Position numbers and translations under genes: made by a program. Below the pieces are notes generated by a model. It worked only from the letters and a program-made list of their open reading frames with translations. It did no database searches and was not told the DNA's origin. Positions 14,237-21,377 of a DNA stretch of 64,000 nucleotides are shown piece by piece. This stretch comes from Succinispira mobilis DSM 6222. GTDB lineage: Bacteria > Bacillota > Negativicutes > Acidaminococcales > Succinispiraceae. Every line of letters begins with the position of its first letter. Position 1 is the first letter of the stretch. The DNA is taken from assembly GCF_000384135.1 (NCBI RefSeq), contig NZ_KB913028.1, forward strand, positions 1,577,351 to 1,641,350. Reading direction: 5' to 3'.

Positions 14237-16474
14237 ATTATTAGTCGTTTACTTAACAATAAATCGCAACTTTATAAAAAACTGCTTTTCGCAATTATTA
14301 TTTCTCTACCTCTTTTATATATTGCTTTACAAATAAATAACACGCTCGTTCATAATTCAGAAAAAAATCTTAAAGAGATTTTCGCTAGAGCTAATACTTT
14401 AATTAATATTAAATTAGACAATAATTTACAACAATTGAATATTTTTGCTCAAGATATCCAGTCAATAAATAGTCTTAACAGGCAGCAACAATTATTATTG
14501 TTGCAAAATATTCTCAAAAACTCTGAGTTTTCACAACTTGGTTATGCCGACAACAATGGTCTTGCTTTGATTTCTAACGGCTTAACTTTTAACATTGCCG
14601 ACCGTGATTACTTCAAATTATCAATAATTGGTAAACACACAATTACGGATTTAGATAATAATCGATTCAATATTCCTGGAAAAGTAGTAGTCTTTGCAGT
14701 TCCGGTTCACAACAAAGAAGGTAATTATATTCAAGGTATCTTACTGGGAGTTTATGATATTGAGAAACTTTTAGATACTATATCATTGAATTTTTTTGAT
14801 AAAAACATTCATATTCATGTATTAAAAAAAGATTTATATGCTAGCTATGAGTTACTACATAAAGAACTTTTCAGTGTTCCTGATTCAATAGTTACAGAAA
14901 AATTATTTGCAAATTCCAGTTTTCAAAATTATCTTCATTCTACTAGTTCTAAAGAAGCTATTTTTGAAATTTTTGCCAATCGCGAACGAAATTTTGTGGC
15001 TATATCTCCGGTTAATTCAAAAAAAGTCACTAATTTAAATTGGTATACTTTTGCAATTTTTCCTAAATCAACAGTTTTTAAGCACGCTAATGCTGCTATA
15101 AGCCAAATTGTATTTTTGATAATTATTTTTTCGGTAGCTTTTACAATTTTCTTTTTCTATGTGCTCAAGGTGAAAAAATACAACAAACTTAAATTAGAGA
15201 AATTAGCCTATCAAGATGAGTTAACTAAATTAAATAACTACAATGGTTTTCTAGCAAACGGAAACTATTTAGTAGAAAATTCGCTCTACAAAATAGTTGT
15301 TATTTATTTCGATATAAATAATTTTAAATTAATTAATGGAATTTTTAGCTATGACTATGGAAATGATTTGTTAAAAATAATCGCTCAAACTTTAAAAGAT
15401 ACTTTTAAACAAGATACGGTATTAGCTCGATTGTCCATGGATCATTTTGCGGTAATTAGTCGTTATGCCAATAAAGAGCAAATTTTTGATATCCTAGAGC
15501 ATTTTTTGAGCTTAATAAACCATAAATACACTGGCAAGTACTCTATAAAGTTATCTATTGGCGTATATTTTAACCCTAGCAATCATAAGCCTAATATCTT
15601 AAACATGTTGAATAAAGCTAATTTAGCTCGAAAATATGTTAAAAATCAAGAATACCTGCCTTATGCAATGTTCGATAAGGACATTGAACAGAATTTAATT
15701 GAACGAACCTGGTTGGTTGATGAGTTAAAATTGGCTATCGAAGCGCAATCTTTTGAAGTTTACTATCAACCAAAATTCGACTTAAAAAATGGCAAAGCCG
15801 TTTCAACAGAAGCTTTAATCCGCTGGAATCATCCCCAAAAAGGATTTATTAATCCAGCAGTATTCATTCCCCTTTCAGAAGAAAGACAAATAACGCCTGC
15901 AATAACTAAAATTGTTTTAACTAAAGTTTGTAAAAATATCCTAGAATTGCGCCAAGAAAACTTGCCTGTATTAACTTGTGCTGTAAATTTTTCTCAAATT
16001 GATTTTTATAGCCCAAATCTCAGCCAAAATATTTCAGAAATTCTCACGGCCTACAACATTGTTCCAGAGTTATTAGAAATTGAAATTACTGAAACCGCAA
16101 TATTTAGCGATTATCAATACATGGAAAGTATCTTAAAGGAATTAAAAAAACTTGGATTATCAATAGCAATTGATGATTTTGGCAGTGGTTATTCTTCAAT
16201 CGCTAATTTAAGTGCGCTTACGGTCGATATCATTAAAATTGATCGATCAATTTTGGTAAATGCCTTTAAGGATGATAAGAGTATGAGCATTCTAAATTCT
16301 ATCATAAAATTAGCTCAAGACATCCAATTGCAAATAGTCTGCGAGGGCGTTGAAACAGAAGCGCAACTCGAGCTTTTAAAAACTTTGAACTGCGACTATG
16401 CCCAAGGTTATATTTATTCCAAACCATTATCCTTTTCAGAATACAAGCTATTTTTACAACAAATTTACGCTTAA
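14237..16474 (+). CDS. dCache-GGDEF-EAL membrane protein, likely c-di-GMP phosphodiesterase; apparent AUU start
   Basis: About 745 residues: an N-terminal membrane helix (about 18-34), an extracellular dCache-like sensor, a second helix (IVFLIIIFSVAFTIFFFYV, about 292-312), a GGDEF domain and an EAL domain. The GGDEF site reads LSMDHF and should be inactive. The EAL site is intact: EALIRW (Glu525), the Asn in NFSQIDF, EITETA, DDFGSGYSS (Asp646-Asp647), IKIDRS, EGVETEAQ and AQGYIYSKP. So it likely degrades c-di-GMP. The open frame continues upstream of the first TTG (14435) through a full membrane helix to a perfect AAAGGAGG (14222-14229), but no ATG, GTG or TTG lies there. ATT at 14237 has ideal spacing, so AUU initiation (or a mutated start) is inferred. 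Confidence 0.82.
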   Translation: MISRLLNNKSQLYKKLLFAIIISLPLLYIALQINNTLVHNSEKNLKEIFARANTLINIKLDNNLQQLNIFAQDIQSINSLNRQQQLLLLQNILKNSEFSQLGYADNNGLALISNGLTFNIADRDYFKLSIIGKHTITDLDNNRFNIPGKVVVFAVPVHNKEGNYIQGILLGVYDIEKLLDTISLNFFDKNIHIHVLKKDLYASYELLHKELFSVPDSIVTEKLFANSSFQNYLHSTSSKEAIFEIFANRERNFVAISPVNSKKVTNLNWYTFAIFPKSTVFKHANAAISQIVFLIIIFSVAFTIFFFYVLKVKKYNKLKLEKLAYQDELTKLNNYNGFLANGNYLVENSLYKIVVIYFDINNFKLINGIFSYDYGNDLLKIIAQTLKDTFKQDTVLARLSMDHFAVISRYANKEQIFDILEHFLSLINHKYTGKYSIKLSIGVYFNPSNHKPNILNMLNKANLARKYVKNQEYLPYAMFDKDIEQNLIERTWLVDELKLAIEAQSFEVYYQPKFDLKNGKAVSTEALIRWNHPQKGFINPAVFIPLSEERQITPAITKIVLTKVCKNILELRQENLPVLTCAVNFSQIDFYSPNLSQNISEILTAYNIVPELLEIEITETAIFSDYQYMESILKELKKLGLSIAIDDFGSGYSSIANLSALTVDIIKIDRSILVNAFKDDKSMSILNSIIKLAQDIQLQIVCEGVETEAQLELLKTLNCDYAQGYIYSKPLSFSEYKLFLQQIYA

Positions 16475-16516
16475 CCTAATCTCAGCAGATTTAACTTTGG
16501 AGCTGGAGGTCTATTA

Positions 16517-18709
16517 ATGAATAATAATAGCAACCTAAAAACTATTGCTGCGGCTATTCTTTCTTGTTTGTTGTTTTTTTCAATGTATTATATGCATTCT
16601 ATAAAAACTTCACTCACTCAAGAATCTGCCTCTTACTTTGTTGAACTCCTAGACAAAACCGCTAAACTTATAAAAATCAAGGCAGATGCAAATTTTCAAA
16701 TTTTGCGCACAATTGTACCTGAAGCTTCAAAACTCGATAAATTATCACTTAATGACCGCCTTTATTTTCTAAATTCGAAGCTAGAAAACTCACCATTTAA
16801 AAAATTAGCATATGCTGACAATACTGGCATGGCGTTATTAAGTTCTGGCGAAAATTTAGATATTATTACCACAAATTTCTATCAAACCAGCTTTTATAAA
16901 CACGAAAATTGCATAGAAAACGAGCATGGCGATATTGTTTTTAGCATTCCAGTTTTTAACTCAAATAAAATAGTCACAGGCGTTTTATACGCTATTGTGC
17001 CTAGTGTAGAATTCTTTGAAGACAGCACTAATACCTTATTAGGTATCAACGATAAAGTAAACTCATATGTTCTCAATAATACTACTTTAAATATGCATTT
17101 TCTTACGAAAGAATTGGATAGTTCTTTCTTCGAAAAGGTTAAGCATAACCATATCGAAAAAATAATTCCTATTTTCTCTAATAACAATATTCGTCTAACA
17201 GAATTCTTCTCTGACCACCAAAAATATATTTTTGCCAACACCTCAATTCAAAGTCCTGAAAATAATCTAAATTGGAGTTTAATAACAATTTTACCTAGTT
17301 CTGTTTTGGCAGTAGCTGCAACTCAAACTATTGCGCTAATTTCGCTTTTATTATTTTTATTGTTGCTAATTTTCATCGGTACAATTGCCTATATTCTAAA
17401 TATGCAAACTCAAAACAAACACAATCTAGAAAAAATAGCATATATTGACAGTCTCTGTTCAATTTATAATAACAATGGACTAATCTTTTATGGCGAGAAA
17501 AAAATTAGACTTTGGCAAATAAATATTGCAGTTATTTATTTAGATATAGACAATTTTAAAATGATCAACAATGTATTTGGCTATGATTATGGTGATCAGT
17601 TACTAAAAACATTTAGTTTAATCTTAAAAAAATGTTTTAAATCGCATTCAATAAGTGCACGCCTTTCTATGGACCATTTTGCGATAATTGTCCACTATTC
17701 TAACAAGATAGCTTTTTTTAAAACCCTGAATAAATTTATTACTACCATTAAAAACAATTATGCCCATAAACATCTTTTAAAACTTTCTCTAGGGCTCTAT
17801 TTCCCAGTTGATCATACAAGCGAAACTATAAGTAATATGCTAAATAAAGCTAATATTGCTAGACAAAAAGTGAAAAACAAAGATCGTCTGCCTTATTTTA
17901 TTTATAACTCAAAGTTAGAACAAGATTTATACTACAAAACATGGCTCCTGGCTGAACTAAAAGCTGCCTTAAAAAACAAAACGCTAGAATTATTTTATCA
18001 ACCTCAATATGATCTGAAAAATTTTAAGCTCAACGCGGCTGAAGCAATTCTAGTTTGGAATCATTCCGAAAGAGGTTTTATTCCGCAAAGCGTATTTTTT
18101 AAAATCGCTGCCGACAACCAGTTGCGAACCGACTTAACTAGTATAATGCTAGAGAAAATATGCATCGATATGCATAGCTGTAAACTACAAAATTTACCCC
18201 TCCAAAAAATCACCCTAACTCTCTCTAAATTTGATTTCTATCAAGAAAATTTAGTAACTAATTTCACAGAAACTATAGGAAAATACAAGCTCGATTTTTG
18301 CTTATTTGAAATAGCAATCGAAGAGACTATCTTGGTTAACAATTATACAAAAATAGAACCGCATTTGCTAAAATTAAGGGATTTAGGTATTAGTATTGCC
18401 ATTGACAATTTTGGTACGGGCTATTCATCTTTCTCTACTCTCGGGACCTTAGCCGTTGATGTAATAAAAATCGACCACTCTATTGTGATTAATTCAATAG
18501 ATAAAAGCAAACAAGTAAATATAATTAAAGCTATTGTTGCTTTGGCTAAAAATATTAATTTAAAAACTGTAGCTACTGGAATTTCAACTCAAGAACAGCT
18601 GGATATTTTGGTTGAGCTCCAGTGTGATGCAGCCCAAGGATTACTTTTCTCCAAACCTCTAGCACTTGTTGACTATTTTAAATTGTTAGCGTATATAAAA
18701 GAAGATTAA
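16517..18709 (+). CDS. dCache-GGDEF-EAL paralogue with degenerate active sites
   Basis: A 730-residue tandem paralogue of the preceding gene, with the same order of helix, sensor, helix, GGDEF and EAL. ATG 16517 follows GGAGG. The GGDEF motif is again LSMDHF. The EAL domain has lost key residues: EAL-x-R has become EAILVW (no Arg, about 509), the Asn-containing strand is LTLSKFDF, DDFG has become DNFG (Asn631), and EGVET has become TGIST (Thr687). Metal binding and catalysis should therefore be gone. It may sense c-di-GMP, or regulate its active neighbour by heterodimerisation. The frame is intact and ends within a terminator, so it is not an obvious pseudogene. Confidence 0.85.
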   Translation: MNNNSNLKTIAAAILSCLLFFSMYYMHSIKTSLTQESASYFVELLDKTAKLIKIKADANFQILRTIVPEASKLDKLSLNDRLYFLNSKLENSPFKKLAYADNTGMALLSSGENLDIITTNFYQTSFYKHENCIENEHGDIVFSIPVFNSNKIVTGVLYAIVPSVEFFEDSTNTLLGINDKVNSYVLNNTTLNMHFLTKELDSSFFEKVKHNHIEKIIPIFSNNNIRLTEFFSDHQKYIFANTSIQSPENNLNWSLITILPSSVLAVAATQTIALISLLLFLLLLIFIGTIAYILNMQTQNKHNLEKIAYIDSLCSIYNNNGLIFYGEKKIRLWQINIAVIYLDIDNFKMINNVFGYDYGDQLLKTFSLILKKCFKSHSISARLSMDHFAIIVHYSNKIAFFKTLNKFITTIKNNYAHKHLLKLSLGLYFPVDHTSETISNMLNKANIARQKVKNKDRLPYFIYNSKLEQDLYYKTWLLAELKAALKNKTLELFYQPQYDLKNFKLNAAEAILVWNHSERGFIPQSVFFKIAADNQLRTDLTSIMLEKICIDMHSCKLQNLPLQKITLTLSKFDFYQENLVTNFTETIGKYKLDFCLFEIAIEETILVNNYTKIEPHLLKLRDLGISIAIDNFGTGYSSFSTLGTLAVDVIKIDHSIVINSIDKSKQVNIIKAIVALAKNINLKTVATGISTQEQLDILVELQCDAAQGLLFSKPLALVDYFKLLAYIKED

Positions 18710-18848: not shown

Positions 18849-19466
18849 ATGAGAAAAATTTTAGCTGTGTTTTTTGTTTTATTTTTGTTTTTGGCTTCAT
18901 TGTACCCAGTAATAGGAATTTTCGCTCTTATTTGTATGTTAGCTCCACCTATATTTGCTGTATTTTCAGGCCGCTTTTGGTGTGGTAATTTTTGTCCTCG
19001 TGGAGCTTTTTTAGATTTGTTTTTAAAAAAATATTCGCGCCATCAAACTCCACCTAAATTTTTAAAAGAAAATAGTTTTAGAATTTTCTTTTTTCTTATT
19101 TTAATGTCTTTATTTACTTTACAGCTATTTTCTGTACCCAATAGCTTGGAGTCTTTAGGGTTGGTTTTCATTAAAGTTATTTTTTTAACTTCTTTGCTCG
19201 GAATTATTCTAGGTTTGTATTACATTCCTAGAACTTGGTGCATGTTTTGTCCAATGGGGAGTTTAAGTAAATTTTTGTCACTTTCTAGAACACAAAATTT
19301 GTTTGTCAAAAAAAATTGTATTGACTGTAAAAAATGTTCTAAAGTGTGCCCACTCCACCTGCAACCTTATCTAGACAAAGGTACTTTTTTTCAAAATTCC
19401 GACTGTTTAAAGTGTGGCAAATGTATATCAAACTGTCCGGTAAATGCTCTCAGTTTTGAGAAATAG
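18849..19466 (+). CDS. NapH/YccM-like 4Fe-4S membrane protein
   Basis: A 205-residue inner-membrane ferredoxin. It has helices at about 4-38, 78-95 and 105-125, two membrane-edge motifs of the NapH type (FWCGNFCPRGAF, about 42-53, and TWCMFCPMGS, about 132-141), and a C-terminal pair of [4Fe-4S] motifs (CIDCKKCSKVCP, about 160-171, and CLKCGKCISNCP). Such proteins pass electrons between the membrane and periplasmic or cytoplasmic redox enzymes. It lies directly upstream of the hydG unit but is separated from it by a strong promoter and leader, so a role in hydrogen metabolism is only suggested. The start has GCGGGGG upstream. Confidence 0.85.
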   Translation: MRKILAVFFVLFLFLASLYPVIGIFALICMLAPPIFAVFSGRFWCGNFCPRGAFLDLFLKKYSRHQTPPKFLKENSFRIFFFLILMSLFTLQLFSVPNSLESLGLVFIKVIFLTSLLGIILGLYYIPRTWCMFCPMGSLSKFLSLSRTQNLFVKKNCIDCKKCSKVCPLHLQPYLDKGTFFQNSDCLKCGKCISNCPVNALSFEK

Positions 19467-19492: not shown

Positions 19493-19521
19493 TTTACATT
19501 AATTATTTTTTATGTTATAAT
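19493..19521 (+). promoter_or_regulatory. Strong promoter of the TM1266-hydG unit
   Basis: TTTACA (19493-19498), a 17-base spacer and TATAAT (19516-19521) with an extended TG at 19513-19514. Transcription should begin near 19528, leaving a leader of about 170 bases. Confidence 0.75.
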
Positions 19522-19527
19522 CGATTT

Positions 19528-19696
19528 GTAATTTTATACTTTGTTCTAAACCTAAAGGTCATCTGACGGGGCAGAAATCTTTTTATAATTCTGAATCTAA
19601 GGGCTTATACCTAAAGATAAAGATGCTACATATAAAATATATTCTGCCTTTATACCTGTTTAGGTTAAAGGCTTTTATTTTTTTCAAGGAGGACTT
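19528..19696 (+). promoter_or_regulatory. Structured leader RNA, candidate riboswitch or attenuator, of hydG unit
   Basis: Two alternative folds can be drawn. Fold A nests AACCTAAA (19549-19556) with TTTAGGTT (19659-19666), and inside it GGCAGAA (19570-19576) with TTCTGCC (19642-19648), and inside that ATCTTT with AAAGAT around a central region. Fold B is the terminator at 19646-19684, whose two arms each use bases needed for fold A. This mutually exclusive layout is that of a transcriptional riboswitch or protein-controlled attenuator. It does not match the consensus of TPP, cobalamin, SAM, FMN, THF, Moco, NiCo, purine, lysine or T-box leaders as I know them. The ligand or factor is unknown. 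Confidence 0.65.
19646..19684 (+). terminator. Intrinsic terminator within the hydG leader
   Basis: GCCTTTA (19646-19652), bulged T, ACCT, loop GTTT, AGGT, TAAAGGC (19666-19672) form an 11-bp stem, followed by TTTTATTTTTTT. It ends just before the AAGGAGG of the TM1266-like gene, so it would block expression of the downstream genes when formed. Confidence 0.85.
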
Positions 19697-19942
19697 ATGC
19701 AAGAACGTATAGCTCTAATAGGTATAATTGTCGAAGCACCTGAAAATGTCGAGTTGTTAAACCAAATATTACACAATTATAACGAATATATAATTGGGCG
19801 TATGGGTATTCCCTACCCTAAAAAATCACTTTGTATAATTAGTGTAATAGTCGATGCCCCTAATAATATTATCAGTGCTCTAACAGGCAAAATAGGTATG
19901 ATTCCTGGGTTAAGCGTAAAAACAGTTTACTCTAAAAATTAA
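19697..19942 (+). CDS. TM1266-like iron-only hydrogenase system regulator (ACT-like)
   Basis: An 81-residue ferredoxin-fold/ACT-like protein of the TM1266 family, which is named as a putative iron-only hydrogenase system regulator because it is encoded next to HydG or other Hyd maturation genes. The protein opens with RIALIGIIVEAPENVELLNQ and has two similar beta-alpha-beta halves. It carries no helix-turn-helix. ATG 19697 follows AAGGAGG. HydG begins 16 bases downstream. Its biochemical role is not established; small-molecule sensing is suggested by the fold. Confidence 0.85.
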   Translation: MQERIALIGIIVEAPENVELLNQILHNYNEYIIGRMGIPYPKKSLCIISVIVDAPNNIISALTGKIGMIPGLSVKTVYSKN

Positions 19943-19958
19943 GGATGGTGATTGCAAG

Positions 19959-21377
19959 ATGTCTACTTACAATAGTAAGTCGCCGATAGCAACAGAATTT
20001 ATTGATGATCAAGAAATTCTTGAAACCCTAAAGTTCGCCCAAGAAAATAAAAATAATTCCGTTTTATTAAATAAAATTTTAGAAAAGGCAGCTTTATATC
20101 ATGGTCTTGACTATCGCGAAGCTGCTGTTTTATTGGAAACTAATGATGAAAATATTCTTGAGAGAATTTTTGATTTAGCCCGTGAAATAAAAGACAAGAT
20201 TTATGGGCAAAGAATTGTAATGTTTGCACCTCTATATTTATCTAATTATTGCGTAAATAGTTGCCGTTATTGCCCTTATCATAGTAAAAACAAGAACATT
20301 GCCCGCAAAAAACTTACTCAAGCAGAAATTGCTAAAGAAATAATTGCCTTACAAGACATGGGACACAAGCGTTTAGCTTTAGAGACAGGTGAACATCCTG
20401 AATATGCACCTATTGAATACATCTTAGAAAGTATTAAAACTATCTATAGTGTGAAACATAAAAACGGTGCAATTCGCAGAGTCAATGTTAATATTGCTGC
20501 CACTACCATAGAAAATTATAAAAAATTAAAAGAAGCAGGTATTGGTACTTATATTCTCTTTCAAGAAACTTATCACAAACCAACTTATGAGTATTTACAT
20601 CCCCATGGTCCTAAACACGATTACGCTTATCATACCGAAGCAATGGATCGAGCTATGCAAGCAGGAATTGATGATGTTGGCATTGGCGTATTGTTTGGAC
20701 TAAATTTATACCGTTATGATTTTGTTGGCTTGTTGATGCATGCTAAACATCTTGAAGACAGCTTTGGTGTAGGACCACATACTATCAGTGTGCCACGCAT
20801 TAGACCAGCCGATGATGTTGATCTTAAGGAATATTCCAATGCTATAAGCGATGCCACCTTTAAGAAAATAGTTGCTATTCTCCGTTTAGCAGTTCCTTAT
20901 ACGGGGATTATTGTTTCTACCCGGGAATCCAAAGAATCACGTCAAGAAGTCTTAGACGTTGGTGTTTCACAAGTTAGTGCTGCCTCCTGCACCAGCGTTG
21001 GTGGTTATGCAGAAAAAGAGCTAGAAAACTCTTCGCAATTTGAAGTAAATGATGAACGTAGCTTAGATGAAATTGTTAACTGGCTATTAGAACTTGGCTA
21101 TATCCCAAGTTTTTGCACTGCCTGTTATCGTGAGGGTCGTACTGGTGACCGCTTTATGCAGCTTGCCAAAAGTGGCCAGATATCTAATTGTTGTCAACCA
21201 AACGCTCTTATGACCTTAAAAGAATATCTCGAAGATTACGCATCAACCGAAACTGCCCTAAAAGGGGAAGCTCTTATTACCCAGGAAATAGAGCGAATTA
21301 CAAATCCTAAGGTTAAAGAAATCGCTCGAAATTATTTACAACAACTTCATGATGGAAAGCGCGACTTTAGATTTTAA
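19959..21377 (+). CDS. hydG: [FeFe] hydrogenase H-cluster radical SAM maturase HydG
   Basis: A 472-residue radical SAM enzyme that cleaves tyrosine to p-cresol and dehydroglycine and yields the CO and CN ligands of the H-cluster. The SAM cluster motif is Cys98-x3-Cys102-x2-Cys105 (CVNSCRYC). The C-terminal cluster motif is Cys386-x2-Cys389-x22-Cys412, which separates HydG from the tyrosine lyase ThiH. Length and motifs are complete. It is co-transcribed with the TM1266-like gene behind a structured leader and ends at a terminator. HydE, HydF and the [FeFe] hydrogenase itself are not in the window and must lie elsewhere if the pathway works. Confidence 0.95.
   Translation: MSTYNSKSPIATEFIDDQEILETLKFAQENKNNSVLLNKILEKAALYHGLDYREAAVLLETNDENILERIFDLAREIKDKIYGQRIVMFAPLYLSNYCVNSCRYCPYHSKNKNIARKKLTQAEIAKEIIALQDMGHKRLALETGEHPEYAPIEYILESIKTIYSVKHKNGAIRRVNVNIAATTIENYKKLKEAGIGTYILFQETYHKPTYEYLHPHGPKHDYAYHTEAMDRAMQAGIDDVGIGVLFGLNLYRYDFVGLLMHAKHLEDSFGVGPHTISVPRIRPADDVDLKEYSNAISDATFKKIVAILRLAVPYTGIIVSTRESKESRQEVLDVGVSQVSAASCTSVGGYAEKELENSSQFEVNDERSLDEIVNWLLELGYIPSFCTACYREGRTGDRFMQLAKSGQISNCCQPNALMTLKEYLEDYASTETALKGEALITQEIERITNPKVKEIARNYLQQLHDGKRDFRF

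Follow-up and report, generated by a model that had tools for sequence, protein, structure and literature searches.

A leader RNA with alternative terminator and antiterminator pairings upstream of TM1266-hydG in Succinispira mobilis: a probable divergent member of an apparently undescribed family

The TM1266-hydG Locus and Its Surroundings

The window analysed here is a 64-kb stretch of Succinispira mobilis DSM 6222, and all coordinates given below are positions in this window. It harbours a TM1266 family gene, encoding a putative iron-only hydrogenase system regulator (19697-19942; TIGR03959, 114.2 bits for a cut-off of 60.8; PF21699), followed by hydG, which encodes the H-cluster CO/CN radical SAM maturase (19959-21377; TIGR03955, 872 bits for a cut-off of 312). 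Both genes, like all the leader elements described below, are located on the + strand. The chemistry of [FeFe]-hydrogenase maturation has been well studied, and we know of no regulator tuning hydG or hydE. To our knowledge, TM1266 is a small protein without assigned function. The one solved structure of a TM1266 relative, 2nzc, is that of a hypothetical protein.

A NapH-like membrane ferredoxin gene (18849-19466) lies directly upstream of the TM1266 promoter on the same strand, and its product is a possible redox partner. Further upstream, two adjacent genes (14435-18709) encode proteins of 679 and 730 aa, which their sequences indicate to be putative GGDEF/EAL sensor proteins (c-di-GMP). A T-box leader (RF00230, 52765-52984, + strand, 124.7 bits) is the sole match reaching an Rfam gathering score in the 64-kb window.

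The Leader between the Promoter and TM1266

A leader of about 160 nt follows the promoter. This promoter (19493-19521) is of the sigma-70 type with an extended -10 element (TTTACA-17-TATAAT, 11/12 matches, TG before the -10), and a ribosome-binding site, AAGGAGG, is read in the sequence at 19686-19692. Between them lies an intrinsic terminator, whose stem-loop GCCTTTAtACCTgtttAGGTTAAAGGC (19646-19672; 7+4 bp with one bulge, -11.3 kcal/mol) is followed in the sequence by the U tract TTTTATTTTTTT (19673-19684). It was not listed by a simple terminator scan of the window, presumably because of its bulge.

Two helices share strands with this terminator. In P1, the antiterminator strand GGCAGAA (19570-19576) pairs with UUCUGCC (19642-19648), which overlaps the terminator 5' arm and is found in both the sequence and the folds. 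An outer helix can be formed by AACCUAAA (DNA AACCTAAA; 19549-19556) and UUUAGGUU (DNA TTTAGGTT; 19659-19666), this latter overlapping the terminator 3' arm. The promoter, both helices and the 11-bp terminator with its T run had been located by the initial annotation, and direct reading bears them out. A weak alternative antiterminator strand, AUAAAG (19617-19622), can pair with CUUUAU (19648-19653) for only -0.9 kcal/mol, GGCAGAA/UUCUGCC being stronger; its location is that of the pairing between core tail and terminator arm seen in relatives. A possible 5' hairpin containing AUCUGACGG (19540-19574) tentatively resembles hairpin 1 of the relatives. AUCUGACGG recurs in hairpin 1 of the leader L063, L062 having AUCUGACAG instead, and a hairpin-1 descriptor run on the leaders did not pick up the window hairpin.

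The MFE of 19528-19690 amounts to -32.2 kcal/mol, for a z of -1.47; since 15 of 200 shuffles are equally stable, the single sequence does not prove a structure. When the upstream leader is shuffled, the terminator 3' arm acquires an 8-bp partner in 3.2% of cases; for the 5' arm, a 7-bp partner appears in 12.8% and a duplex as stable as the real one in 2.5%. Since the fold of the single sequence is weak, the case rests on the comparison with relatives.

A Core Hairpin Shared among TM1266 Leaders

For the comparison, Negativicutes supplied loci of both hydG and TM1266, and further TM1266 loci came from a broad set of genomes, the scan for TM1266 leaders covering at least 592 places. Structured elements are present in many TM1266 leaders. 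A core of about 35 nt is shared by TM1266 leaders of Negativicutes, Clostridia and a few other groups and by the hydG leaders of one genus. It forms a ladder, CU-GA-stem B (3-5 bp)-RA-inner stem-loop-RA-stem B'-NRAAGGC, which is followed by a terminator. In this ladder, CU pairs with AG, and the GA/RA steps resemble tandem purine mismatches.

The initial annotation had named the two helices. The conserved part is the core hairpin between them (19590-19623 in the window), which had gone unmentioned. The outer helix (19549-19556/19659-19666) was considered as the conserved part and rejected, having no counterpart in the relatives read. What is conserved in principle is an antiterminator sharing the terminator 5' arm. 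Together with the lack of an Rfam match, this means that the conditions set initially for refuting the annotation mostly turned out in its favour.

The stems of the core vary freely with their pairing kept, as judged from alignment counts. In alignment A9 (18 leaders), 95.7% of the cells are paired and the covariation score is 0.797 versus at most 0.225 for slid structures; in the same way, alignment A7 (37 leaders) gives 91.2% of paired cells and 0.523 versus at most 0.211, some of the stems having been recognised by eye before alignment, some of the leaders having been picked by eye once the pattern had been seen, and each score being set against slid and shuffled partners within one and the same alignment. 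The inner core covaries strongly. A simple core descriptor (score of at least 9), whose tail pattern was relaxed with the window in view and whose allowed tails AAAG and AAGA suit the window, finds the core in 54 of 136 TM1266 leaders; the corresponding rates are 0.4% for shuffles and 1.6% for control stretches located downstream. Furthermore, 10 of 61 leaders have another hairpin with this GA ladder upstream, most often at a distance of 42-46 nt from the core, versus 0.8% of shuffles.

The leaders of the first group, which comprises Sporomusa and others, are near-invariant: their 5' hairpin is accompanied by AUCGUGCUGAUUGCAUGAGGGUUCGUCCCAAAUGAGAAGGCGAGAGAAUAG and by a CCUUGUGCC...GGCACAAGGAUUUUU terminator; the terminator of the Sporomusa sphaeroides TM1266 leader is CACAAGGAUUUUU.

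Other leader types were encountered before TM1266 genes. A divergent TM1266 subfamily (L085, L086, L088, L089, L269, L270, L272, L276-L279) is preceded by a distinct type of leader, GCAAGGG...CCUGCGCANAGGA, upstream of which a UCUGACG-type hairpin is often seen, and some genomes (e.g., G068) carry both TM1266 types. These leaders possibly represent a second class of TM1266 leader RNA. Another type, GGCGGAAGG...UUCUGACGCCGAGCGCGGGAAAA plus a terminator, is found in L066, L069, L096, L097, L228 and L233, all from one genus (g60).

The Window Leader as a Probable Member of the Family

R3, a covariance model made from 18 leaders with the window left out of training, ranks the window hairpin (19584-19633) first in the 64 kb, with 19.8 bits (E 0.0043), the next match reaching 10.9 bits. 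When the search is restricted to the 201 bases of the leader, the E-value is 1.4e-5, and a further 100 kb of this genome gives 12.8 bits at best. Held-out leaders score from 16.9 to 31.5, a range that includes the window. The match contains no non-standard pair. Its ladder (19590-19623) reads UCU-GA-AUCU-AA-GGG-CUUAUA-CCU-AA-AGAU-AA-AGA and consists of UCU/AGA, GA/AA, AUCU/AGAU, AA/AA and GGG/CCU with the loop CUUAUA. Stem B (19595-19598/19615-19618), AUCU/AGAU, differs on both sides from the CGCC/GGCG type. The independently aligned model R2 also ranks the window core first; its stem B and inner stem are one column off on the 3' side, and R2 therefore counts as supporting evidence only.

R1, a covariance model of full leaders of the Sporomusa type (hairpin 1 and core) made with the window left out, has no match in the window at E 10, and the window leader is not of this subtype. 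In a whole-genome search, R3 did not list the window core, which was presumably dropped by the first-look filter, and, over 380 genomes, chance yields matches of 21-26 bits that nearly always fall within reading frames; 9 of 10 low-scoring matches inspected in other genomes fall inside reading frames. Membership of the window thus rests on position plus score. The core is located 106 nt before the TM1266 start codon, and the intrinsic terminator (19646-19684) sits between them.

The window leader diverges from its relatives by AAAG in place of AAGG and by a stem A of only 3 bp. The AAGGC that follows stem B' elsewhere is absent, AAAGAUG being found there; it is common and not universal in the family, as exemplified by the AAGAU of L185, L197 and L261. 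We consider it quite probable that the window leader belongs, as a divergent copy, to a so far apparently undescribed family of cis-regulatory RNAs preceding TM1266 genes, named here the TM1266 leader RNA, and that it acts by a terminator/antiterminator choice.

Association of the RNA with TM1266

The initial annotation had placed the leader before the TM1266-hydG unit. The leader RNA follows TM1266 rather than hydG or any one downstream enzyme. Of 380 Negativicutes genomes, 24 have R1 matches, at 27 places altogether, all of which precede a TM1266 gene or remnant; R1 also matches in Clostridia such as Acetobacterium. The gene located after TM1266 varies: many Negativicutes have hydG there and many Clostridia hydE, a family that contains Megasphaera has a NifH-like gene, and a BtuC/FecCD-type permease or PocR-type sensor gene is found in one locus each. 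In the genus g7, the element lies directly before hydG and TM1266 is found elsewhere in the genome under its own core-bearing leader; this counts as one case because it concerns a single lineage. All 33 genomes with an R1 match or a g7 hydG-leader match carry TM1266, which is present in only 115 of the 380 genomes overall.

In L124, L212 and L221, the leader and TM1266 are followed by a NifH-like reductase gene, that of L124 being below the nifH cut-off. Such neighbours suggest that TM1266 serves low-valent metal-cofactor chemistry beyond the [FeFe] hydrogenase. In L185, one of the two TM1266 leaders with AAGAU tails together with L197, the next gene encodes the BtuC/FecCD-type permease. L127, in genome G044, is a TM1266 remnant consisting of the N-terminal 40 aa with a diverged end, whose leader is still recognisable (64.5 bits); this genome also has an intact TM1266 copy.

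Comparison with Known RNA Classes

At the gathering score, no family of Rfam 15 (4227 families) matches the window leader or 33 relative loci, which agrees with the initial opinion that no known class fits. At E-values up to 10, nothing credible was found for the window leader and that of L047. The highest sub-threshold bit score in the window leader, that of the PyrG leader (RF02371) over 19601-19684, is 21 bits versus a gathering score of 65 and, with an E-value of 2.9, corresponds to chance. We found no paper describing a leader RNA before TM1266, hydG or hydE, and an earlier listing under another name is possible. In a term search, the main texts of the structured-RNA surveys covered do not mention hydrogenases. 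For Sporomusa sphaeroides KIAC, a published dRNA-seq/Term-seq set comprises 47 cis-regulatory 3' ends (PMC12456013).

The TM1266 leaders resemble known terminator-controlled riboswitch classes, as generally understood, by their position in the 5' leader, their compact conserved core and an alternative pairing that overlaps an intrinsic terminator. However, their core, CUGA...RA...RA...AAGGC, and their gene association are unlike those of these classes. T-box leaders (RF00230) share a choice between terminator and antiterminator, but the TM1266 leader has no T-box match.

In attenuation of the PyrR type, an anti-antiterminator hairpin is bound by the product of the operon itself. A comparable system would account for each regulator gene having a single type of leader, as well as for the repeated small hairpins, the conserved bases of the internal loops and the freely changing stems. 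However, TM1266 is, as far as known, unrelated to PyrR and is not known to bind RNA. The TM1266 leader RNA is apparently a new class of terminator-controlled leader RNA, without a new principle.

A Proposed Mechanism

The shared strands found by computation, like the covarying core, the window match and the terminator, outline how such leaders could work. The sensor would be the small hairpin ladder, with its CU/AG pair, GA/RA step, stem B of 3-5 bp, RA/RA step, inner stem and NRAAGG. The terminator 5' arm could pair instead with an antiterminator strand, which in most relatives would be the 3' tail of the core itself (AAGGC with GCCUU). An effector acting on the core would shift the choice between terminator and antiterminator and thus lead either to a stop before TM1266-hydG or to read-through.

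Several observations concern the pairing of tail and terminator arm. In 42 leaders possessing both a core and a clear terminator, the mean duplex energy between the core tail and the 5' arm of the leader's own terminator is -12.2 kcal/mol versus -10.2 +/- 0.33 when the arms are permuted among leaders, and none of 300 permutations is as low. A compensatory change from AAGGC/GCCUU to AAGAU/AUCUU is found in L185 and L197, and an AGAUGC/GCAUCU pairing is readable in L261 and L263. As the AAGG of the tail also belongs to the core, core and antiterminator are mutually exclusive in most members. This predicts that the binding of an effector to the core would give termination (OFF).

In the window, the antiterminator is more probably the upstream strand GGCAGAA. 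The GGCAGAA/UUCUGCC helix occupies the start of the terminator 5' arm and can coexist with the core, which is intact and enclosed by this helix in the MFE fold. As the pairing used by the relatives is weak in the window and GGCAGAA/UUCUGCC does not exclude the core, control could run in either direction there. The initial annotation, supported in part, was right about a structured leader ahead of TM1266-hydG in which terminator and antiterminator exclude each other, and about this leader being a candidate for a riboswitch or attenuator. We infer that cells do make this choice and that an effector directs it; this stop-or-go hairpin probably sets the transcription of genes that build the active site of the [FeFe] hydrogenase.

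Effector and Alternative Explanations

As the effector, we slightly prefer the TM1266 protein, with or without a bound ligand or metal, to a small molecule or ion that the RNA would bind by itself. The protein would bind the core hairpin of its own mRNA, together with the second similar hairpin upstream, and steer termination in the manner of PyrR; this autoregulation has, in our opinion, close to an even chance of being correct. The RNA tracks TM1266 whatever the next gene (hydG, hydE, the NifH-like gene, the BtuC/FecCD-type permease or the PocR-type sensor), every genome with a trusted match has TM1266, and the hydG leaders of g7 occur where a non-adjacent TM1266 has its own core-bearing leader. 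The second GA-ladder hairpin (10 of 61 leaders versus 0.8% of shuffles) points in the same direction, and a small core with freely changing stems fits a protein site. However, we know of no RNA binding by TM1266, and a ligand riboswitch for the TM1266 pathway would give an equal gene association. A true riboswitch, whose core would bind a small molecule or ion of H-cluster or low-valent iron metabolism (e.g., Fe2+, CO, cyanide or a HydG/HydE product), has, in our opinion, somewhat less than an even chance. Its conserved internal-loop core coupled to a terminator would be the usual riboswitch layout, and the genes downstream concern metal cofactors, but this core is small for a metabolite aptamer and near-exclusively tied to one gene of no assigned function.

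Two further explanations were considered. The terminator could be constitutive and partly leaky, with incidental pairings and no regulation, as would agree with the z of -1.5 obtained for the window fold alone and with an outer helix that is near chance; the family-wide covariation and the matched pairing of core tail and terminator make this improbable. Attenuation mediated by ribosomes on a leader peptide would likewise employ a terminator with an alternative pairing. It is very improbable because the leader has no short ORF that possesses a ribosome-binding site and stops before TM1266; the one beginning with ATG at 19623 continues through the terminator into this gene.

Returning to TM1266 as the partner of the RNA, a wider picture may be drawn tentatively, and we would put it at rather less than even: a widespread undescribed RNA class of anaerobes would control genes of H-cluster maturation by attenuation, TM1266 being its RNA-binding and possibly metal- or ligand-sensing partner.

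Significance

A leader RNA conserved before TM1266 predicts which operons are controlled, offers an assay of terminated versus read-through transcripts and gives a hint about the role of TM1266. If the RNA alone has an H-cluster precursor, iron, CO or cyanide as its ligand, this would represent a new class of riboswitch ligand.
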